Of a stretch of 64,000 nt of DNA, positions 16,258 to 26,969 are shown in pieces. Under the pieces are notes generated by a model. It was not told where the DNA came from and did not search any database. It saw nothing but the letters and a program-made list of their open reading frames with translations. How positions within the stretch are numbered: the first letter of the stretch is position 1; each line of letters begins with the position of its first letter. Source of the stretch: Bifidobacterium pullorum subsp. gallinarum (GTDB lineage Bacteria > Actinomycetota > Actinomycetes > Actinomycetales > Bifidobacteriaceae); the NCBI RefSeq assembly GCF_000741215.1, contig NZ_JGYX01000001.1:62001-126000 (forward strand). The letters run 5' to 3'. A program made the position numbers and the translations under genes.

Positions 16258-17790
16258 ATGGCGGACCCCAGAGGATTCCTTAAAGTACGTACCCGCCGCG
16301 AACCGGCTGAACGCCCCGTCGAGGAGCGCATCCGCGACTGGATGGACGTGCACGCCGAATCCGGCCTGCAGCCGTGGACGCGCGAACAGGCGTCCCGCTG
16401 CATGGACTGCGGCACCCCGTTCTGCATGACCGGCTGCCCGCTGGGCAACCTCATCCCCGAGTTCAACGACCTGGTGTATCAGGGCAAGTGGGAGGACGCC
16501 TACCACCGGCTGTCCTCCACCAACAACTTCCCCGAGGTCACCGGCCGCATCTGCCCGGCCTTATGCGAATCGGCGTGCGTGCTGGGCATCCACCAGCCGG
16601 CGACGATGATCAAGAACGACGAATGCACGATCATCGACCAGGCGTGGCAGCTGGACTACGTCAAACCGATGCCGCCGCACCGCCTGACCGACATGACCGT
16701 GGCCGTCGTCGGCTCCGGACCGGCCGGACTCGCCTGCGCCCAGCAGCTGACCCGCGCCGGACACACCGTCGTCGTCTACGAGCGCGACGACGCGATCGGC
16801 GGCCTGATGCGCTACGGCATCCCCAACTTCAAACTCGACAAGCGGCTGATCGACCGCCGCGTGGAGCAGATGGAGGCCGAAGGCACGCGGTTCCGCACCG
16901 GCGTGGAGGTCGGCAAGGACATCTCCTGGGACGAGCTGCGTTCGCGGTATGACGCGGTAGTGGTGGCGATCGGCTCCACCGTGCCGCGCGACATGAACCT
17001 GCCCGGGCGGGACCTCGACGGCATCCATTTCGCGATGGAGTACCTGCCGGACGCCACCCGCCGCGTCTACGGCGTGGCGCCGGTCCATGACATCACCGCC
17101 GAAGGCAAGGACGTGATCGTGATCGGCGGCGGCGACACCGGCTCCGACTGCCTGGGCACCGCCATCCGCCAGGGCGCCAGGAGCGTGACCGTACTGCAGA
17201 TCATGCCCAAGGAGCCCACGGAGCGCCCCGACGACCAGCCGTGGCCCACCTACGCACGCCTGTACCAGCGGACCAGCTCGATGGAGGAGGGCGGCGAATA
17301 CCTGTACAACACGGATTCGGTGAACTTCATCGGTTCCGAGGAGGAGCAGGCCAGGGTGACGGTCGAGCATGCCGCCACGGCCGCCGGATTCGTGGCCGAC
17401 GAGCACGGCCACGTGACCGGGCTCAAGGTCGTCAACGTCGCGCCGGGGGAGGACGGGCCGTTCACCCGCCAACCGGGCACCGAACGCGTGCTGCCCGCCG
17501 ACCTGGTGCTGATTTCGGTCGGCTTCCTGCATCCGGACACGACGACGCTTGTTGAGCAGTTGCCGGTCGAACTGGACGGGCGCGGCAACGTGGCGCGTGA
17601 CGACTCGTACGCCACGTCGCAGGACGGCGTCTTCGCCTGTGGTGACGCGGGCCGCGGACAGAGCCTGGTGGTCTGGGCCATCGCCGAAGGCCGCTCCTGC
17701 GCCGCCGCCGTGGATCGCTACCTGACCGGCGACACCGAACTGCCCGCGCCGATCGCCGCCTCGCGCCGGCCGATGGCGCTGCCGCGGTAG
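16258..17790 (+). CDS. gltD: glutamate synthase small subunit
   Basis: This is the 510-residue GOGAT beta subunit, which passes electrons from NADPH through FAD and 4Fe-4S clusters to GltB. Cysteine-rich N-terminal motifs (CMDCGTPFCMTGCPLGN and CPALCESACVLGI) bind the clusters. VVGSGPAGLACA is the FAD site, and VIGGGDTGSDC is the NADPH site. It follows gltB with a one-base gap, so the two are translationally coupled. Confidence 0.97.
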   Translation: MADPRGFLKVRTRREPAERPVEERIRDWMDVHAESGLQPWTREQASRCMDCGTPFCMTGCPLGNLIPEFNDLVYQGKWEDAYHRLSSTNNFPEVTGRICPALCESACVLGIHQPATMIKNDECTIIDQAWQLDYVKPMPPHRLTDMTVAVVGSGPAGLACAQQLTRAGHTVVVYERDDAIGGLMRYGIPNFKLDKRLIDRRVEQMEAEGTRFRTGVEVGKDISWDELRSRYDAVVVAIGSTVPRDMNLPGRDLDGIHFAMEYLPDATRRVYGVAPVHDITAEGKDVIVIGGGDTGSDCLGTAIRQGARSVTVLQIMPKEPTERPDDQPWPTYARLYQRTSSMEEGGEYLYNTDSVNFIGSEEEQARVTVEHAATAAGFVADEHGHVTGLKVVNVAPGEDGPFTRQPGTERVLPADLVLISVGFLHPDTTTLVEQLPVELDGRGNVARDDSYATSQDGVFACGDAGRGQSLVVWAIAEGRSCAAAVDRYLTGDTELPAPIAASRRPMALPR

Positions 17791-17820
17791 GGAACGAAAC
17801 ATTCCCTCCGCGCCATGAAG

Positions 17821-17850
17821 TTGTTTCCCCGCGTGCTTTGACTGTATAGT
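17821..17850 (+). promoter_or_regulatory. promoter of the response regulator gene
   Basis: TTGTTT and TATAGT are separated by 18 bases. The start point predicted from the -10 box falls almost on the GTG codons at 17853/17859, so the mRNA is probably leaderless. Confidence 0.5.
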
Positions 17851-17858
17851 CAGTGCAC

Positions 17859-18527
17859 GTGGGGAACAATGCTATTCACTTGGCGATTGCCGATAATGAC
17901 GAGATCGTGCTGAGGGGACTCGCGGCGATCATCAGCCAGCAGCTGCCGCAGGTTCGTGTCAGATGGGTCGCCCACTCGGGGCATGAGGCCATCGAGCGGG
18001 CGCTGGATCCGCTGAACCGCGTCGGCATCCTGCTCCTGGACATGAGCTTGGAGGATATGCCGGGCACCGAAGCGTGCCGGCGGATACGTTCCAGGAACGG
18101 CATGCTGCCTATTCTGGCGATGACGGCCTTCTCGCTGAACCAGTACGCGGCCACGGTGGCGGACGCCGGCGCGCAGGGCATCGTAGGCAAAGACGATTTC
18201 AATGGTCTGTGCCAGGCGATCACGGCGGTGGCGGCCGGTGGTGTTCTGCCGGCGATGACCGGCGGCATGCGGAACGTCTTGTTTGAGTCGGCGCAGTACG
18301 CTCACAAGCGTCTGCGAGTAGCGGACGGGCCAAATCTGACATTGCTCACTGAGCGAGTACGGCAGGTGGTGGAGCTGTACGCGCAGGCGAACAAACCGGC
18401 CGTCATCGCTCTGCGGCTAAAGATTACGCCAGGGTCGGTCAAGACCCATCTGGACCGGGCGCAGAAACGGCTGGGGCTGTCCTCACGCGCGGAGCTGGTG
18501 GATCTGTGGTGGCGGTGTCAGGTATGA
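17859..18527 (+). CDS. LuxR/NarL-type response regulator
   Basis: This is a 222-residue response regulator. The receiver domain has acidic residues in IADNDE (10-15), the phosphoacceptor Asp61 (LLLDMSLEDMPG) and Lys in GIVGKDD. The C-terminal LuxR-type helix-turn-helix covers about 160-215 (LTERVRQVVELYAQ, then KITPGSVKTHLDRAQKRLGL). No ribosome binding site is seen; a leaderless GTG at 17859 fits the promoter, and GTG 17853 adds two residues. Its stop overlaps the kinase start (ATGA), so both form a two-component operon. The ABC cassette downstream of the IS110 remnant is the likely target. Confidence 0.9.
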   Translation: MGNNAIHLAIADNDEIVLRGLAAIISQQLPQVRVRWVAHSGHEAIERALDPLNRVGILLLDMSLEDMPGTEACRRIRSRNGMLPILAMTAFSLNQYAATVADAGAQGIVGKDDFNGLCQAITAVAAGGVLPAMTGGMRNVLFESAQYAHKRLRVADGPNLTLLTERVRQVVELYAQANKPAVIALRLKITPGSVKTHLDRAQKRLGLSSRAELVDLWWRCQV

Positions 18528-19723
18528 GCAGGAGGAACCGCGGCAATAGCACACACGAGGCCGTGCTTCGGGGCATTCACGGCATTCGCCGGCATATGGC
18601 CGCATGGTCGATAGCGGACAAGGTCATCCTGTGTCTGTCGGCAGCTGCGTTGGTCGTGGCGATCGCCGAATGGATCATGAACCCGCCGCATACGGTGGTG
18701 GGTGTCGTGGGGGCGATGCTGCTTTGTGTCGCGTTGGCGCTACTGCCGTGGCGGGGACGTTTGGCGGCGTGGATGATAGTGATTATCGGGGTCATCGGTG
18801 ACATGTCCATCGGTTTCGATGCCACAGGGCCGAGTGGGACTTGGGCGTTATTGTTGGCGATGGTGGTCTTTGGCCGGCACCCTCGAATCCCGGAATGCAT
18901 CGCCACAATCGGCATTACCATGGCCAGTGTGACATATGCCACGATTCGATATCCGGAGATCATGGGATATGGCATACCAAACGGCATCATGAACTTCGGT
19001 ATTGGATTGTTCTGCGTTTATCTGATTGGGGTGTCGATCTGGTATCGGGAAAGGCAACGTGCCCAACAGGAGATACGGCATCAGATGGAACAGGCGCAGC
19101 TGCAATTGATGGCGGCCACATTGCTGCATGATGCGGTATCAGGCAGTCTGACCAGAATCCTCATCACCGCCGAACGCATGAAGCGGGAACGGCCTGATGA
19201 CTATGCACGTTGCGGTATGGAAGACATCGTCGGGTACGCCACTGACGCGTTGCATAAGACTCATCAGGCCATCGAGATGGTCCACGGTGGAGGTTCGGCG
19301 GCGAACGGAACGGGACGGTTCACGTTGCTGGTCGCCGTTCGAGCTACTGCGTCATCCGGCGACCGAAGACTGCATGAGCTTGGGTACCACGGGGAGACCC
19401 TTATACAGGGGGAATGTAACCGGCAGTTGGACGATCGTGGTTATGCGTTCATCCAACTGCTGCATGAGATCTATACCAACATCGAGCGGCATTGCGATCC
19501 ACAGTGCTCGACATACCGCATACATCTTCGATTCGCCGATGATGCGGTCACATTGCTACAGACCAACGGAACGGCAACATCGGAGCAATGGGTCGCCCCT
19601 CCCAAATCCGGGCGGGGATTGGCTTTGCACGGTGAACAGATCAAGGCGCTCGGCGGAACCATACGCATCGGCGTGAATGATGGGCAATGGCGGTTCTTCT
19701 GCATGATGCCGCTCAACAGTTAG
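18524..19723 (+). CDS. membrane sensor histidine kinase, partner of the LuxR-type regulator
   Basis: This is a 399-residue kinase. Residues about 34-172 hold five or six membrane helices with short loops, so it may sense the membrane or a small peptide rather than through a large external domain. The likely phosphorylated residue is His202 in TLLHDAVSGSLTR, a DHp of the NarL-partner (HisKA_3-like) type. The ATP-binding domain is divergent: the N box is EIYTNIERH (315-323) and a late G-rich stretch is GRGLALHG (363-370). The ATG overlaps the regulator's stop. An IS110 remnant follows, separating it from the ABC cassette. Confidence 0.85.
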   Translation: MSRRNRGNSTHEAVLRGIHGIRRHMAAWSIADKVILCLSAAALVVAIAEWIMNPPHTVVGVVGAMLLCVALALLPWRGRLAAWMIVIIGVIGDMSIGFDATGPSGTWALLLAMVVFGRHPRIPECIATIGITMASVTYATIRYPEIMGYGIPNGIMNFGIGLFCVYLIGVSIWYRERQRAQQEIRHQMEQAQLQLMAATLLHDAVSGSLTRILITAERMKRERPDDYARCGMEDIVGYATDALHKTHQAIEMVHGGGSAANGTGRFTLLVAVRATASSGDRRLHELGYHGETLIQGECNRQLDDRGYAFIQLLHEIYTNIERHCDPQCSTYRIHLRFADDAVTLLQTNGTATSEQWVAPPKSGRGLALHGEQIKALGGTIRIGVNDGQWRFFCMMPLNS

Positions 19724-19893
19724 CCGCATAACCACTGTGAATGCGCATACCAGAGCAACTATTTTGACGTTGATAATGGTTATGCCGGTTGGATTGACCG
19801 GTGATAATGGGAAAGTGGCGGCCGGGGCGGTGACCCACAATTTGACCGGCGGACCCTTCCAGGTCCTGTCCTTGTTTCGGTTTGTCCCGTCCC

Positions 19894-19956
19894 GGTCCGC
19901 CGGCCCGAAGGCCATGGAGGCATGACCTCATAGGAGCGTGGCCGCTCCGCCGGACC
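19894..19956 (+). ncRNA. structured RNA candidate at the IS110 left end (bridge/seek RNA?)
   Basis: GGTCCG (19894) pairs with CGGACC (19951) and encloses three hairpins: GGCC-CGAA-GGCC, GAGG-CATGA-CCTC and GGAGCG-TGGC-CGCTCC. The whole has a cloverleaf-like shape in 63 bases. It lies about 90 bases before the IS110 transposase start, where IS110-group elements are known to encode the bridge RNA that guides target choice. The stems are short and this is a by-eye fold, so the call is tentative. The rest of the gap 19724-20045 shows no gene. Confidence 0.35.
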
Positions 19957-20045
19957 CTAGCAAGAACCATGGTAGCGTGCCCGCGCCGACGTCCTGTCTG
20001 CGCCGGAAGCCTCGGGAACGGCAGACATATGGATGGAGGACAAGG

Positions 20046-21327
20046 ATGGAGCATCCCAGGATCTACGCGGGGGTGGACACCCATTCCGACACGCATACGC
20101 TCGCCCTGATCGACGAGCACGGCAGGCCGTTGGCCACGCAGACGTTCACGGCCGACCCGACCGGCTACGAGAGGCTGGTCGCCATGATCGGCGATCCCGA
20201 TGCCTGCCTGGGCGTCGGGGTGGAAGGCACCAACTCATACGGGGCCGCGCCCGCCAGACGACTCGTCAAGGCCGGGTACGACGTACACGAGGTGCTCCGG
20301 CCCAAACGCTCGGTGCGACGCAGGGACGGCAAGTCCGATCCCGTCGACGCCCTCGCCGCGGCCCGCAGCGTGCTCGCGGGCGACGGGACCAGCGTGCCGA
20401 AAAGCGCGGATGGATGGGTCGAGGCGCTACGCGCCCCGGACGCGGAACGGGCGCAGCCGGTCACGGCGACGGCCGCGCTGTCCAACTCCGCGAAGGGCCT
20501 GCCGGCCACCGCCCCGGAACACATCCGGGAACGCTACCGCGGGCTGCGCACCCCGACCAGGATGCGCAGGCTCGCCGCATGCCGTCCCAGCGGGAACACG
20601 GTGGAACAGGGCATGCTCGTTGCGCTGAAGGCCTCGGGCAAGGCATGGAAGGCCCTCAAGGAGCAGGCGGACCTGCTGGAGAGGAGCATGAGACTCATCC
20701 TGGAGGAGCACGCGATAACGCCCGCCCGCTGCTCGACATCTACTGCGCCAGCACGGTGACCGCCGCGACCCTGGCCATCGTCGCCGGCGACAACCCCGAA
20801 CGCATCCGCAGCGAGGCCGCGTCCGACCAGGCTCTGCGGCGCCTGCCCCATCCCCGCCTCCAGCGGCAAGTCCAACCGGCACCGGCTCAACAAAGGCGGC
20901 AACCGGCAGGGCAACTCCGCCCTGCACCACATCGCCATCGTCCGCATGCGCTACCACCAGCCCACCCGCGACTACGTGAATCGGAAGACCAAGGAAGGCA
21001 AAGGCAAGATGCAGAATCATCCGCTGCCCGGAACGCTTCATCGCCCGCGAGGCCTACCGGGCCCTCATCTCCATCCGCCGGGGACGGACGCCCCTGAACA
21101 AGCCACCGGCCGAACGCGGACGACGGCTTCGCGAGCTACGCGTCGCGCACGGCATCACCCAACAACAGGTCAGCGACGCCCTCGGCGTCCACTCCATCCG
21201 CATCAGCGAGATCGAACGCGGCACCCGCAACCTACCCGAACTCGAACGACGCGCCACCCTCTGGATCCAAACCATCACCACCCCGAACCAACCAAACCAA
21301 CACACCGAAACCCTTGACAATGTATAG
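20046..21327 (+). pseudogene. IS110-family transposase with at least three frameshifts and a C-terminal XRE-like HTH
   Basis: The N-terminal DEDD RuvC-like catalytic domain is recognisable: AGVDTHSDTH, GVEGTNSYG and GKSDPVDAL carry the acidic residues. The frame changes near 20730 (resuming as NARPLLDIYCASTVTAAT), near 20830 (resuming as CPIPASSGKSNRHR, then NKGGNRQGNSALHHI, the transposase_20-type region) and near 21015. A last segment (about 21094-21327) encodes GRRLRELRVAHGITQQQV and SDALGVHSIRISEIERGTR, an XRE/Cro-like helix-turn-helix, ending at TAG. With several shifts it is unlikely to make an active protein. Whether the HTH belongs to the original transposase or is a fusion is not certain. 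Confidence 0.8.
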
Positions 21328-21398
21328 GAGCATCAAAACACATCCTGTATTCGTACGCTCTTCCACATGGTATCGGACGCGAGACCATCATTGGCGGT

Positions 21399-21422
21399 CT
21401 TGTCCCCTAAACGGGGTACAAG
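21399..21422 (+). terminator. hairpin upstream of the peptide gene
   Basis: CTTGT-CCCC and GGGG-T-ACAAG pair around TAAAC with one bulged base. It lies between the IS110 end and the peptide gene. It could terminate transcription coming from the IS element or the two-component genes. Confidence 0.35.
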
Positions 21423-21462
21423 GCTGGTTTCGCTGAAGATAACGAAGCACAGTGTTGTTTGT

Positions 21463-21477
21463 CTTCCACAGTGGAAG
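21463..21477. promoter_or_regulatory. 15-bp palindrome, candidate operator of the peptide/ABC operon
   Basis: CTTCCAC-A-GTGGAAG is a perfect dyad 23 bases upstream of the peptide start. TCTTCCACA also occurs at 21359-21367, about 103 bases upstream, as a second half-site. The size and symmetry fit a LuxR/NarL-type dimer, and the two-component pair lies just upstream. Confidence 0.5.
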
Positions 21478-21500
21478 GCATACAACATAAGGAGGCTCTT

Positions 21501-21560
21501 ATGAGCATGAACGAGAAGGCGATCGTCGGCGAATCCGGGAATTGCAGAAAACAGCAGTGA
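21501..21560 (+). CDS. 19-residue peptide ORF heading the ABC operon
   Basis: The peptide MSMNEKAIVGESGNCRKQQ is preceded by AAGGAGG at seven bases, one of the best ribosome binding sites in the region, and it is downstream of the 15-bp palindrome. Three ABC-2-like membrane proteins and an ATPase follow on the same strand. It is hydrophilic, with one Cys and no recognisable leader. It could be a secreted or signalling peptide, a precursor for modification, or an upstream leader peptide that controls translation. No modification enzyme is seen nearby. I do not recognise the sequence. Confidence 0.45.
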   Translation: MSMNEKAIVGESGNCRKQQ

Positions 21561-21623
21561 CACGCATAGGTGCAGTTTCGGAACTGCCCCATGTGCCAGG
21601 CAAAGCGTAAAGGATGGCGCACG

Positions 21624-22286
21624 ATGAGGGGACTGATGTTCTGTGTAGCTCGAACGTATTGCACGGTGGGGGTGTTGCTGACGGTGGTGCTGGGTAGCGT
21701 CCTGCCGTGGGCGACAGTAGGATTGGTCTCCGGTGTGGCCGCATCCGATGTGGACGTACCTGCTGTAGTTGGCGGTGCATCGATTCCCATTGCCGGCATC
21801 CTGACGGTAATCGTGGTATGCGCCATCATGCATCGGCATATGCATGATGGGGTGTTCTCTATGATCGTATTATCGGAAACGCCGCTGTACCAATACGTAC
21901 TGGCCCAAACGCTGCTGCCCATGTCAAGCGTGGTCGTCAGCACCTTGGTCTGGGTGGCGGTTCTGTCGGCACGTCAATCGGTCATATCGCCCGTTCTGGT
22001 GCTGAACATCGTCTTGTTGGGCGCGGTCATCAACGTGTTGGTCATCAGCATCTGCCTGCTGTGGTACCAGCTTTCGCCGAACCTCGATGAGCAGTCGGCG
22101 GCGATGGGGAGCGTGTTCATATCCGCCATGGTCGTGTGGCTGTCGCTATGGACTGAGCTGCAGTCGCTGGGAACGATTAACGGGTTGGTAACGACACTGG
22201 GACTCGTAGCTTTGGCAGCGGGCGCCACTGCATGGTGCGAGCATGTGTTCCGCCGCCGTTTTCCGCGGGCGCTGGCACAACCATGA
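21624..22286 (+). CDS. small ABC-2-like permease subunit (paralogue of 23973-24656)
   Basis: This is a 220-residue integral membrane protein with about six hydrophobic segments, starting MRGLMFCVARTY and running into VGVLLTVVLGSVLP. The same start pattern, a shared LWTE...N motif and the CEHVFRRRFP-like end are found in the last gene of the cassette, so the two are paralogues. The ATG at 21624 is used; AAAGGA lies about ten bases upstream. With the ATPase at 23080 it probably forms an exporter or an immunity-type transporter. No Pfam-level family is recognisable by eye beyond ABC-2-like. Confidence 0.75.
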   Translation: MRGLMFCVARTYCTVGVLLTVVLGSVLPWATVGLVSGVAASDVDVPAVVGGASIPIAGILTVIVVCAIMHRHMHDGVFSMIVLSETPLYQYVLAQTLLPMSSVVVSTLVWVAVLSARQSVISPVLVLNIVLLGAVINVLVISICLLWYQLSPNLDEQSAAMGSVFISAMVVWLSLWTELQSLGTINGLVTTLGLVALAAGATAWCEHVFRRRFPRALAQP

Positions 22287-22369
22287 CTATAAAGCAACCA
22301 ACACCGCTCCTGCCATTGCGTGCGGTTATTCCGATTTGCAGAATAGCCGCACTCGCACGAAAGTCCGCA

Positions 22370-23044
22370 ATGAAAGCTTTTCTATTCAAGGAATTCCGCT
22401 TATTCACCTCGTTGAATCGGATGTGTTGGGTTTCGCTGATCTTTCCAGTACTTCTGGTGATCCACCCATTGTCGCTTCAGGCAGGGAACGCCCTGTTCAA
22501 TGCAATGATCGATGTTCCGGCGTTCGGATGGTCCTTTGCCATTACCGTGGACTACACCACCTGGCAGGACTATCTGGAAGGCGTCCCCGAGCTCATCGTG
22601 CAATCGGGTACGTCATTCCGCACCTATCTGTTGACGAAGCTGTGGATGTATGAGGCGGCGACCACGGTCTTCCTCGTCATATCGTTGCTGGCGGCGCTGC
22701 ATGCCGACCGCGGCGCCTTGCCGGCACCGGGTATGGTGGCGGCGCAGCTCCTCATGGCTTGTTTGATGAACTGGGCGTGGACCGCGCTGGACACGCAGCT
22801 CGCCATGTTCCTGCGGTTGCTGATGCCGAACACGGCGTTCCTCCTCACCGCCTGCATACTGATGATTCCGATGTTCGCCAGCATCGTGCTATGGGCGCTA
22901 CCATTCGTCACTGCGGCGCTGATTTCCCTGGCGATCGTTCTGCTCTGCGCGGTGGGGGCGTTCCTGCTGTCGCTCACCGTGCTGCAACGCCGATACGCAT
23001 CCACGTTGGGCGATCTCGGCACGATTGCCCCGCCAATCATGTAA
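22370..23044 (+). CDS. ABC-2-like permease subunit
   Basis: This is a 224-residue membrane protein with about six hydrophobic segments and the N-terminus MKAFLFKEFRLFTSLNR, typical of ABC-2 permeases, where an amphipathic KEFR helix precedes the first membrane span. An upstream ATG at 22283 overlaps the previous stop (ATGA) and would add 29 residues. I prefer 22370 because that extension looks non-coding and the three permeases then have similar lengths (220, 224 and 227), but coupling at 22283 cannot be excluded. The ATPase gene follows after 35 bases. Confidence 0.75.
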   Translation: MKAFLFKEFRLFTSLNRMCWVSLIFPVLLVIHPLSLQAGNALFNAMIDVPAFGWSFAITVDYTTWQDYLEGVPELIVQSGTSFRTYLLTKLWMYEAATTVFLVISLLAALHADRGALPAPGMVAAQLLMACLMNWAWTALDTQLAMFLRLLMPNTAFLLTACILMIPMFASIVLWALPFVTAALISLAIVLLCAVGAFLLSLTVLQRRYASTLGDLGTIAPPIM

Positions 23045-23079
23045 TCCATGAACAGTCATCATCGGGAAAGGACCCGTAT

Positions 23080-23865
23080 ATGAACACCGATACGATCATC
23101 GCCGTCGATCATGTGACCTTCGGCTACAGAAAACGCCAGACCGTGCTGGAGGACGTCTCCCTCACGGTGCCGCAAGGACAGACGCTGGCCCTGTTGGGCT
23201 ACAACGGCGTGGGCAAGACCACGCTGTTCAACCTCATCGTCGGACTCCTGCGGCCTCGGAGCGGCCGCTGCGTCATCAACCAGGCGCTTGTGCCGTCGAT
23301 GCGCGATGTGTTCCTGATGACGGAACGGGCCAACCTCGTCGATTCGATGACGCTCCGCGACAACATCAGGTTCCGCGCACTGCTGTTCGCCGACGGCGAT
23401 TCCACGTCACGGAATGTGAATCCGGCTGACCTTGACGATGAGCCGTTGATCCGGGCGTTCGAGCTCGGGCCGCATCTTGACAAGAAGGTGTCGGAGCTCT
23501 CCAGCGGACTGCGCAAGCGCGCTGGCCTGGTGGCGGGCATGCTGTTCGATCCGCACGTCATCATGCTGGACGAGCCCACCAACTCCATCGACCCGATCAC
23601 GCGCGACCTATTCATCGACTACATCAGCCAGCTGCACGTCGCCGGACGGACGATCCTGACCATCACGCATGATCTGGAGTACTGCTGGAAGGCCGCGGAG
23701 CGGGTCGTCATCCTCGACGACCGGCATATCGTCAAGGACATCATGCTCGTCGACGTGCCCGATTACGAAACCTTCACCGGCATCGCGACGTTGGGGCGTG
23801 ACCGTGAGGGCGTGGACTTCGGCATACAACACGCGGGCGAAACGACATCGGAGAGCCGGGGATGA
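23080..23865 (+). CDS. ABC transporter ATP-binding protein
   Basis: This is a 261-residue ATPase subunit. Walker A is GYNGVGKTT (40-48), the signature LSSGLRKRAGL at about 140 is a variant of LSGGQ, and Walker B with the catalytic Glu is IMLDEPTN (about 161-168). The H loop is ITHDLEY. It closely resembles ATPases of ABC-2 exporters for antibiotics or peptides. GGAAAGGA lies upstream of the ATG at 23080. It is the only ATPase in the cassette and must serve the three small membrane proteins around it. Confidence 0.93.
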   Translation: MNTDTIIAVDHVTFGYRKRQTVLEDVSLTVPQGQTLALLGYNGVGKTTLFNLIVGLLRPRSGRCVINQALVPSMRDVFLMTERANLVDSMTLRDNIRFRALLFADGDSTSRNVNPADLDDEPLIRAFELGPHLDKKVSELSSGLRKRAGLVAGMLFDPHVIMLDEPTNSIDPITRDLFIDYISQLHVAGRTILTITHDLEYCWKAAERVVILDDRHIVKDIMLVDVPDYETFTGIATLGRDREGVDFGIQHAGETTSESRG

Positions 23866-23893
23866 ACCGTGGCGTACCCGCGTTCATCAAGTA

Positions 23894-23925
23894 AACACAC
23901 GTATCCCAAACGGCATACGTGTGTT
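23894..23925 (+). terminator. hairpin between the ATPase and the last permease
   Basis: AACACACGTAT and ATACGTGTGTT form a perfect 11-bp stem with a ten-base loop. There is no T run after it, so it may be a partial terminator or an mRNA-stability element setting a lower level of the last gene. Confidence 0.5.
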
Positions 23926-23972
23926 GCAAGAAGCGGGCAACAGACGGACTCATGGTAATGGAAGGAAGATCT

Positions 23973-24656
23973 ATGAAAGCATTGGTGTTTTACGTTGCCC
24001 ACATGTACCGCAGGCTCATCTTCGGCGTATACGCGATGCTTGCCGTACTGGTACCGCTTGTACTCTCCGGCGTGATGATGTCGTCGGACCAGGTCCCCGG
24101 CGCATTGGCGGGACGTGCCGTTGTGGAGTTCGCGTTGCCGGTCGGGAACCTCACGGCTGTGATTGGGGCGTGCCTGGTGCTGCAGCAGGATGTCGCCAGA
24201 GGAATGTTGGTCGACCTCAAGCTGAGCAACACCCCGGTGATGCGGTATGTGCTGGCGAATTCGATATACCCGATGACGACCGCCGTAATTTCAATGATGG
24301 CAACACTGGGCATCCTGTTCGCTCGGCATATTGATATACCCGTCATGACGGTATGCGATGCTTTCATCATTGAATTCATGGCATGCATCATCAGCATCGG
24401 CGTTTGCCTGATATTCTTCATGCTCAATCCGGAGAAGGATTCCCAGACCGCCCAGATGCTTGCGGTGTTTATGTGTTTCTGCATCGTAGCCGTTCTGCCG
24501 TTATGGACGGAATTCGAGGCATTCAGTCTGCTCAATGCCGTTGTCGCGCGGGTCGGGATCCTGGTGGCTCTCATCGCCGCCATATCCGGCTGTCGGTACG
24601 TGTTCGGACGACTGTTCCCCAACACGCTGGACCGCATGTACACGGAATCGGCATAA
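23973..24656 (+). CDS. small ABC-2-like permease subunit (paralogue of 21624-22286)
   Basis: This is a 227-residue integral membrane protein, starting MKALVFYVAHMYRRLIF, with about six hydrophobic segments. It is similar along its length to the first permease of the cassette, including LWTEFEAFSLLN against LWTELQSLGTIN and CRYVFGRLFP against CEHVFRRRFP. GGAAGGA precedes the ATG at 23973 by seven bases. A hairpin separates it from the ATPase, so its expression may differ. It is probably an alternative or additional membrane partner of the same ATPase. Confidence 0.75.
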   Translation: MKALVFYVAHMYRRLIFGVYAMLAVLVPLVLSGVMMSSDQVPGALAGRAVVEFALPVGNLTAVIGACLVLQQDVARGMLVDLKLSNTPVMRYVLANSIYPMTTAVISMMATLGILFARHIDIPVMTVCDAFIIEFMACIISIGVCLIFFMLNPEKDSQTAQMLAVFMCFCIVAVLPLWTEFEAFSLLNAVVARVGILVALIAAISGCRYVFGRLFPNTLDRMYTESA

Positions 24657-24767
24657 TCCCCGAGTCGCCTCGCGTGCCTTGAATTATCCGGAATGCGCGA
24701 CGGATTTCTGCGGTTGCTGTTGTACAGTAGCTTGCAGTGAATCCGTTCGCATCATGAAGGAGTGAGC

Positions 24768-25226
24768 ATGCCGAACCGTGCAGAACGCCGTGCGCAGGAG
24801 AAGCGTAACCGCAGGGGCATCCCGCAGCAGTACGACCAGACCCGGGGTCGTGGCCGTTCCGGGATGATCGACGAATACGCGCTGCAGCAGAAGTCGATCC
24901 GTCTGCAGGAGGGCACGGACGGCGAGTGGAAGCCGACCGCCTCGTTCGAGACGCCGGAGATGACGGCCGATACGGATATCGCGCTGCGCAATCCGAAGCT
25001 CGTCAAGGCACCGCATTCGGTGCGTCAGTGGTTCCGGGTGTTCAGCTGGGCGCTGATCGTCATTGCGGCGATCGCGTTCGTGGTGGTCATGTGGCTGCCG
25101 ACCAAGCCGATCTGGCTGGTGGCCGGCGTGGCCGTGGTCTTCGCGGTCGGCGTGCTCAGCCTGTTCTTCACCGCGGGAAACTCGAAGCACAACCCGAATC
25201 TGGACGCCAACGGCACCGCCGTGTGA
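24768..25226 (+). CDS. small membrane protein of unknown function
   Basis: This 152-residue protein has a basic N-terminal third (NRAERRAQEKRNRRG), a polar middle and two adjacent hydrophobic helices (about 91-110 and 114-135), with a short polar tail. I do not recognise the family. AAGGAG lies seven bases before the ATG at 24768. It has its own terminator at 25256-25300 and no functional partner nearby. The N-terminus resembles cytoplasmic nucleic-acid-facing tails, but that is only composition. Confidence 0.75.
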   Translation: MPNRAERRAQEKRNRRGIPQQYDQTRGRGRSGMIDEYALQQKSIRLQEGTDGEWKPTASFETPEMTADTDIALRNPKLVKAPHSVRQWFRVFSWALIVIAAIAFVVVMWLPTKPIWLVAGVAVVFAVGVLSLFFTAGNSKHNPNLDANGTAV

Positions 25227-25255
25227 TCGGGCGGAAACCGTTCCTCCATCGTTCA

Positions 25256-25300
25256 GATCGCCTCCGACGAACGTCTCACACGCGCTCGTCGGAGGCGATC
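25256..25300. terminator. 15-bp stem terminator shared by convergent genes
   Basis: GATCGCCTCCGACGA and TCGTCGGAGGCGATC pair perfectly around a 15-base loop. It lies between a plus-strand gene ending at 25226 and a minus-strand gene ending at 25312, so it can serve both. Confidence 0.7.
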
Positions 25301-25311
25301 GGCGTTACACG

Positions 25312-25554
25312 TCACCAACCCAGCGGCGCATCCAGCATGACGTGGGTCGATGAGGTCACCAGCACGTCGATCGAGCGGCCTTTGGTCGGGTGCGACGAGG
25401 TCGAGAACGAGAAATGCCGCGTCTTACGGTCTGCATGGGCCTTGGCGACGACATCGCACAGGTCCGCGTACGTCTTCGTCGCGGAATCGGCGGAATGGAA
25501 CTCGAACGGTACGCCGTCGATATACAGACGGTAGATTGCATAATCCTCAGCCAT
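25312..25554 (-). CDS. hypothetical 80-residue protein
   Basis: This is a small soluble protein starting MAEDYAIYRLYIDGVPFEFH, with mixed alpha/beta character and no membrane segment or known motif. A Ser/Thr-rich stretch (FSFSTSSHPTKGRS) is near the C-terminus. The ATG at 25554 has only a weak upstream match to a ribosome binding site; an extension further 5' is possible. It is divergent from glgA. Third-position GC is high, as in neighbouring genes, which supports a real gene. The function is unknown. Confidence 0.55.
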   Translation of the reverse strand: MAEDYAIYRLYIDGVPFEFHSADSATKTYADLCDVVAKAHADRKTRHFSFSTSSHPTKGRSIDVLVTSSTHVMLDAPLGW

Positions 25555-25619
25555 ACGCTCATGTAAACACCGCAATCTTAAAATGCGGTGCGGGGCGTGT
25601 TGCGGCATGGGCGCGCGGA

Positions 25620-25695
25620 TTGTCGACAACGGCGCACAACTTGTCGCAACATGGGCGGTATGTTGTGCGTTTTTTGTGTGCGGATGTCATACAGT
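25620..25695 (+). promoter_or_regulatory. glgA promoter region with dyads
   Basis: A palindrome TTGTCGACAA (25620-25629) and an 8-bp inverted repeat (CGCACAAC at 25633, GTTGTGCG at 25662) precede a probable -10 box TACAGT at 25690-25695. The dyads suggest repressor or activator binding; no -35 box is obvious. Confidence 0.4.
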
Positions 25696-25733
25696 AGACA
25701 GTGGCAGAGTCCATTTCTACAGAGAGGTGACCA

Positions 25734-26969
25734 ATGAAGGTCGATATCCTGACCCGTGAGTATCCGCCCAAGGTCTATGGCGGCGCCGGCGTGCACGCCG
25801 AGGAGCTGAGCAAGGTCCTGGCCGAACGCATCGACGTGACCGTGCGCGCGTTCGACGGCCCGCGCACGGAGGCCGATGTGCCGGCCATCCCCGGCAGCGA
25901 TCCCAAGGGCAGCCTGACGGTCGTCGGCTATGACACCCCGGCCGCACTCAAAGACGCGAACGGCGCGATCAAGACGTTCGGCGTGGATCTGCAGATCGCC
26001 AACGACGTCGACGCCGACATCATCCACGCCCACACCTGGTACGCCTGCCTGGCCGGCCGTCTGGCCCAGCAGCTGCACGAGATCCCGCTGGTCATCACCG
26101 CGCACAGCCTGGAGCCGTTCCGCCCGTGGAAGCGCGAGCAGCTCGGCGGCGGCTACAACCTGAGCTCCTGGGCCGAGAGGGACGCCTATGAGCACGCCGA
26201 CGGCATCATCGCAGTCTCCGGCGGCATGAAGGAGGACATCCTGGCCGCCTACCCGAACGTCGATCCGGACAAGGTGCACGTGGTCTACAACGGCATCACG
26301 ATGGACGACTTCGCCACCCCGGCCGACGACGATCCGGCTTGGGGCGTGTTCGACCGCTACCATATCGACCGCAGCAAGCCGACCCTGCTGTTCGTCGGCC
26401 GCATCACCCGCCAGAAGGGCCTGCCGTATCTGCTGCAGGCGCTGCACTTCGTGGACAAGGACATCCAGGTGGTGCTTGCGGCGGGCGCCCCGGACACCCC
26501 GGAGATCATGGAGGAGGTCAAGACCGCCTTCGCCAAGCTGGACGAGGAGCGCGGCAACATCATCTGGATCGAGGAGATGCTCCCCAAGCCGGAGCTCAAC
26601 GCGCTTGAGCACGGCTGCGACGCGTTCATCTGCCCGTCGATCTACGAGCCGCTGGGCATCGTGAACCTGGAGGCCATGGCCTGCGGTCTGCCGGTGGTGG
26701 CCAGCGCCACGGGCGGCATCCCGGAGGTCGTGGTGGACGGCGAGACCGGCTATCTGGTCCCGATCGACCAGCTGCACGACGGCACCGGCACCCCCACCAA
26801 CCCGGACAAGTTCGTGCACGACATGGCCGACGCGATCAACAAGGTCATGCGCGACCCGGAGCTGGCCAAGAAGATGGGCGAGGCCGGCTACGCGCGCGCC
26901 CGCGACAAGTTCAGCTGGGAGTCGATCGCCGACGCGACCATCGAGGTTTATAAGAAGATCCTCGGTTGA
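25734..26969 (+). CDS. glgA: glycogen synthase, actinobacterial GT4 type
   Basis: This is a 411-residue GT-B glycosyltransferase that extends alpha-1,4-glucan from nucleotide-glucose, or makes maltose-1-phosphate in related GlgM enzymes. MKVDILTREYPPKVYGGAGVH is the N-terminal acceptor-side signature; FVGRITRQKGL, PSIYEPLGIVNLEAMACGLP and ATGGIPEVV form the GT4 donor site. The ATG has GAGAGGTG upstream. It is shorter than E. coli GlgA, as expected for this actinobacterial group. A 27-bp stem terminator follows at once. Confidence 0.9.
   Translation: MKVDILTREYPPKVYGGAGVHAEELSKVLAERIDVTVRAFDGPRTEADVPAIPGSDPKGSLTVVGYDTPAALKDANGAIKTFGVDLQIANDVDADIIHAHTWYACLAGRLAQQLHEIPLVITAHSLEPFRPWKREQLGGGYNLSSWAERDAYEHADGIIAVSGGMKEDILAAYPNVDPDKVHVVYNGITMDDFATPADDDPAWGVFDRYHIDRSKPTLLFVGRITRQKGLPYLLQALHFVDKDIQVVLAAGAPDTPEIMEEVKTAFAKLDEERGNIIWIEEMLPKPELNALEHGCDAFICPSIYEPLGIVNLEAMACGLPVVASATGGIPEVVVDGETGYLVPIDQLHDGTGTPTNPDKFVHDMADAINKVMRDPELAKKMGEAGYARARDKFSWESIADATIEVYKKILG

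Follow-up and report, generated by a model that had tools for sequence, protein, structure and literature searches.

A class II lanthipeptide locus of Bifidobacterium pullorum subsp. gallinarum that has probably lost production and kept its sensing and protection genes

The stretch of DNA analyzed here (hereafter the window) comprises 64 kb of contig NZ_JGYX01000001.1 from Bifidobacterium pullorum subsp. gallinarum, and the locus in question contains genes of a two-component system, the remnant of an IS110-family insertion sequence (IS), an open reading frame (ORF) of only 19 codons and four genes of an ATP-binding cassette (ABC) transporter. With a probability of roughly 0.75, this is a class II lanthipeptide cluster of the lichenicidin A2 type in which production has been lost while sensing and protection have been kept, a reading based on homology, gene order, gene losses, intact frames and a conserved palindrome. 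The gene order and coordinates proposed in the initial annotation (response regulator, kinase, IS110 remnant, 19-codon ORF, permease, permease, ATPase and permease) hold, and its interpretation as a bacteriocin- or immunity-type module in which a two-component system accompanies an ABC transporter was right. All of these elements lie on the forward strand. The frames of the regulator, the kinase, the three permeases P1, P2 and P3 and the ATPase are all open and add up to about 4.7 kb. An Rfam scan of 17400–25000 gave no match. Relatives were searched for with the window ATPase in 112 Bifidobacterium genomes, one per species (designated G with a number), and B. tissieri was added from another collection.

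The 19-codon ORF (21501–21560), which reads MSMNEKAIVGESGNCRKQQ, is preceded by the strong ribosome-binding site (RBS) noticed earlier, AAGGAGG at 21489–21495, and by an RBS-proximal inverted repeat, TGTCTTCCACAGTGGAAGGCA, at 21460–21480. Eleven of its 12 leader residues match two intact class II lanthipeptide precursors of G004 (putative B. aesculapii), whose ORFs begin MSMNEKQIVGES; among the 5725 start codons of the window, each translated over 12 codons, the second-best candidate reaches 6 of 12. The likeness extends to the DNA across the RBS and the leader, which aligns with lanA2 of G004 with a local score of 74 (300 shuffles reached 28 at most) and with lanA1 with a score of 46 (27 at most in shuffles). 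For the tail GNCRKQQ, the counterparts in the alignment are the Cys-Lys tails of the precursors (GTCKKH, GTCKKH, GKCHK, FKCNKH and YKCK), although this assignment, unlike that of the leader, rests on few residues. All five intact precursors scanned (two from G004 and one each from G006, G046 and B. tissieri) are above the cut-off of NCBIfam TIGR03893, the lichenicidin A2 family, for the scoring of which the 19-residue window ORF is too short.

Given the leader match, the resembling tail and the relatives above the family cut-off, the ORF is almost certainly a lanA gene shortened in frame by an internal deletion. This would have removed the remainder of the leader, the GG-type cleavage site and nearly the whole Ser/Thr/Cys core, leaving leader residues 1–12 and a seven-residue tail with one Cys, and a deletion inside lanA is the simplest reading of how the leader and the tail came to be joined. 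Judged by this comparison, the ORF is to be regarded as a remnant rather than as a member of the class II lanthipeptide precursors. The initial annotation had recognized no known peptide family here, which fails once relatives are consulted, as both leader and tail match lichenicidin A2-type precursors; the candidate of a new signalling family was rejected after the leader match. The idea of a complete secreted signal sensed by the kinase is likewise unsupported, the ORF being an internally deleted precursor without the GG-type cleavage region, in a genome without a detected LanM or C39 peptidase to modify or export the 19-mer. Disruption of the ORF in comparison with relatives, named earlier as grounds for refuting the proposal, is indeed found for the peptide and not for the surrounding module.

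Neither LanM (TIGR03897, E ≤ 1e-4) nor a C39 peptidase (PF03412, E ≤ 0.01) had a match in the genome of the window, and no trace of LanM was found in window positions 17001–26000. LanM scored above the cut-off in three of the 112 genomes (G004, G006 and G099), and so did lanA (G004, G006 and G046). Both LanM, the synthetase, and LanT, the peptidase-exporter, appear to have been lost from the locus, and the lanA remnant speaks for loss, i.e. a change from producer to non-producer, as the direction of events at this site.

A close relative of the ATPase (best E < 1e-50) is present in 23 of the 111 other genomes. Six clusters, including the one in the window, carry lanA or its remnant, the others being those of G004, G006, G046, G060 and B. 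tissieri, and the order in these relatives is regulator, kinase, lanA, permease(s), LanM, ATPase and LanT. LanM, absent from the window, is whole in G004 (1046 residues) and G006 (1036 residues), both of which possess a LanT with a C39 peptidase domain. It is broken in three of the five related clusters: in B. tissieri it is cut to 651 residues with the cyclase part gone, and 142 and 97 matched residues are left in G060 and G046, respectively. The lanA gene of G060 has lost its start. The regulator, kinase and ATPase genes are open in G060, B. tissieri and the window.

The cluster of G004 (L035, 1599–1793 and 4903–5091) is an apparently complete class II cluster. It encodes LanT, a single LanM and two precursors of the A2 type, between which an IS110-type transposase-like ORF is located; its regulator was covered by a partial view only. 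The cluster of G006 (L040) is complete, with regulator, kinase, lanA, two permeases, LanM, ATPase and LanT in this order, and is a candidate producer.

The two-component pair at 17859–19723 was confirmed. The LanR-like response regulator (17859–18527, GTG start) contains a receiver domain (PF00072, 4.4e-16) and a LuxR-type helix-turn-helix domain (PF00196, 2.1e-8), and is 41% identical to the lanthipeptide-cluster regulators of G006, G060, G046 and B. tissieri, with its receiver Asp and Lys aligned with those of the relatives. The LanK-like membrane histidine kinase (18524–19723) was left unnamed by the Pfam scan; its His box LLHDAVSG, N box EIYTNIERH and G box SGRGL align with those of the cluster kinases of G006, G004 and B. 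tissieri, and its identity to the G004 kinase is 30%. The region between the kinase and the lanA remnant is occupied by the IS110-family remnant (20049–21338), as had been proposed, with a PF01548 match (1.2e-16) over 20049–20756, a transposase frame broken into separate ORFs and a second copy in the same genome showing 95% identity across window positions 20123–21338. After the transposase remnant, the frame at 21098–21325 reads like a small helix-turn-helix protein and has no Pfam match.

A palindrome, TTGTCCCCTAAACGGGGTACAA, is found at 21400–21421, 79 nt upstream of the lanA remnant, and the same motif with the 22-bp core TTGTNCCCN6GGGNACAA lies 83 nt upstream of both lanA genes of G004. 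The site in the window is the single one in the whole 2.16-Mb genome and is a candidate operator of the response regulator. Another palindrome, GTATTCC..GG.ATAC, precedes lanA or its remnant in G006, G046, G060 and B. tissieri, and one of the type GTAT[TC]CC..GG.ATAC, ACACACGTATCCCAAACGGCATACGTGTGT, is also located upstream of P3 in the window (23895–23924), where it may be a second operator; this assignment was made after the fact, as the pattern was written after its sites had been seen and is descriptive only. The palindromes are presumably bound by the response regulator.

The ABC cassette consists, as annotated initially, of the permeases P1 (21624–22286) and P2 (22370–23044), the ATPase (23080–23865) and the permease P3 (23973–24656). 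The LanF-like ATPase (PF00005, 4.1e-22) shows an identity of 74% to its relative in G028, 65% in G004, 59% in G006 and 64% in B. tissieri, the last three adjoining LanM genes; no LanM was found in the genome of G028. Its MTE motif aligns with CPQ of ABCA3, placing Glu at the position of the Q-loop Gln, which is also the case in five of the six aligned Bifidobacterium ATPases counted. Glu in the Q-loop (the "E-loop") is what we take to be a mark of LanF proteins, and a literature search for the E-loop found nothing. A second ATPase of the same family, with 51% identity, is present elsewhere in the genome of the window (L031, G000:C1:265623-266366).

None of the three permeases matched a Pfam, NCBIfam or PADLOC (anti-phage) model at E ≤ 0.1. 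P2 is LanE/LanG-like: it is 48% identical to a permease of G028 and gives a profile match with a probability of 94% to the G004 permease encoded between lanA2 and lanM; no P2 was found in plasmids. P1 and P3 are paralogues with 30% identity, and a search of the 112 genomes with P3 returned nothing besides these two. Crude hydropathy gives 6, 4 and 6 transmembrane segments for P1, P2 and P3, respectively, against the two six-segment permeases by which LanE/LanG are recognized. In G028 (L034), a P2-like permease and the ATPase have a regulator and a kinase upstream on the opposite strand, perhaps forming another orphan protection cassette.

With its biosynthetic half lost, what is retained of the locus is best read as an inducible protection module of the LanFEG/Cpr-like kind, and it is reasonably probable that this module has also kept its function. 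Several observations weigh against this overall reading. In G046 (putative B. merycicum), not only LanM and LanT but also the kinase, a permease and the ATPase are broken. The early and frequent breakage of LanM requires no selection, because it is the longest gene and would be expected to break in this way without any. In 396 genomes of the order, P1 and P3 had no detectable relatives outside the window's own genome, their profile matches to the cluster permeases did not exceed 30%, and the AlphaFold model of P1 was unusable (pLDDT of 45.9, from a two-row alignment). Many Bifidobacterium cassettes that have neither LanM nor lanA also contain an ATPase of this family, and the ATPases of LanM clusters do not form one exclusive clade; in view of this, the long outgroup branches and the midpoint rooting, the tree was dropped as proof of origin. 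A simple LanFEG label is weakened by the presence of three permeases, the weak links of P1 and P3 and the lan-free relatives of the ATPase.

The state of G046, together with the IS110 copy inside the locus, would also suit a locus that is merely decaying, with lanA, LanM and LanT going first and the remaining genes still unbroken without serving any present function. We consider this possible but rather doubtful, since the six genes are open although no trace of LanM or LanT is detectable in the locus any more, which suggests that enough time for breakage has gone by, and the catalytic residues of the kinase and the receiver are retained. At the other extreme, the match of the leader might be convergent, the ABC and two-component genes being a peptide-sensing module that was never part of a lanthipeptide cluster. 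The ATPase relatives in lan-free cassettes and the dissimilarity of P1 and P3 to cluster permeases would fit such an origin, but the leader matches at both the protein and the DNA level, and the palindrome and the order of regulator, kinase, lanA and permease are held in common with lan clusters, which makes convergence very improbable.

It is also conceivable that the 19-residue ORF has been put to new use, either translated as a leader ORF of the operon or supplying a short peptide that the kinase would recognize as its ligand, given that it retains its start codon and in-frame stop, together with the strong RBS and the palindrome upstream, and that the deletion is in frame. One third of deletions, however, are in frame by chance, the same deletion was not found in a second genome, the cleavage site is gone, no signal peptide is evident and the genome is without a C39-peptidase exporter, so we regard such re-use as improbable. 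There is an equally small chance that the locus is a natural halfway stage from a lantibiotic producer to a stand-alone resistance system able to sense lantibiotics, with the shortened lanA kept for one of these roles.

If sensing and protection have been kept, the kinase would sense a lantibiotic made by neighbours, or a related envelope stress, and the LuxR-type regulator would bind the palindromes upstream of the lanA remnant and perhaps of P3. As in Cpr-type resistance operons, the transporter would then confer immunity by taking the lantibiotic peptide out of the membrane. A remnant precursor beside an intact sensor and transporter would be sequence evidence for the change from a producer to a resistant non-producer, here in a gut commensal genus and accompanied by losses in relatives that are parallel in part. 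The case also indicates that small ORFs with a strong RBS can be remnants of longer precursors and not new peptide signals.

Loss of production with sensing and self-protection retained is a known kind of outcome. Cpr-type operons are described as encoding a LanFEG-like transporter and a two-component system without biosynthetic genes, as being induced by an external lantibiotic and as being assumed to be evolutionarily linked to producer clusters (PMC5786555). Among staphylococci, resistant non-producers are reported to beat producers and are termed cheaters (PMC5945643), and B. longum DJO10A is described as having lost its lantibiotic region in culture (PMC2430713). The opposite direction is argued for S. 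mutans, where cassettes for synthesis are described as having been inserted next to resistance genes that were there before (PMC9241761). For pseudocin 196, immunity is stated to have been shown through expression in L. cremoris (PMC11305057). Literature searches for bifidobacterial lantibiotics listed no title on the present locus, which is not proof of its absence in print.

Judged by their descriptions, the bisin locus of B. longum DJO10A (PMC2430713) and pseudocin 196 (PMC11305057) resemble the window in that they are class II systems, lie beside IS elements and include a two-component system along with immunity genes. In the derivative DJO10A-JH1, unlike in the window, the entire region including immunity is described as lost (PMC2430713), and pseudocin 196 is set apart by its description as lacticin 481/variacin-like (PMC11305057). 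The lichenicidin A2 family (TIGR03893, with LanM of TIGR03897 and LanT) shares with the window the leader sequence and the order of regulator, kinase and lanA, whereas the window copy is without the cleavage site, nearly the whole core, LanM and LanT. Compared with LanFEG immunity transporters, the window has an ATPase of the kind that adjoins LanM in Bifidobacterium and small, hydrophobic permeases, but three of these instead of two, and it lies outside a producing cluster. Cpr-type operons such as CprABC of C. difficile and nsrFE1E2G of S. mutans are described as likewise combining LanFEG-like ABC genes and a two-component system without biosynthetic genes (PMC5786555), the name of the latter implying three permeases, as in the window. 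The window differs from them in its LuxR/NarL-type regulator, in the lanA remnant still present and in P1 and P3 being without detected relatives.

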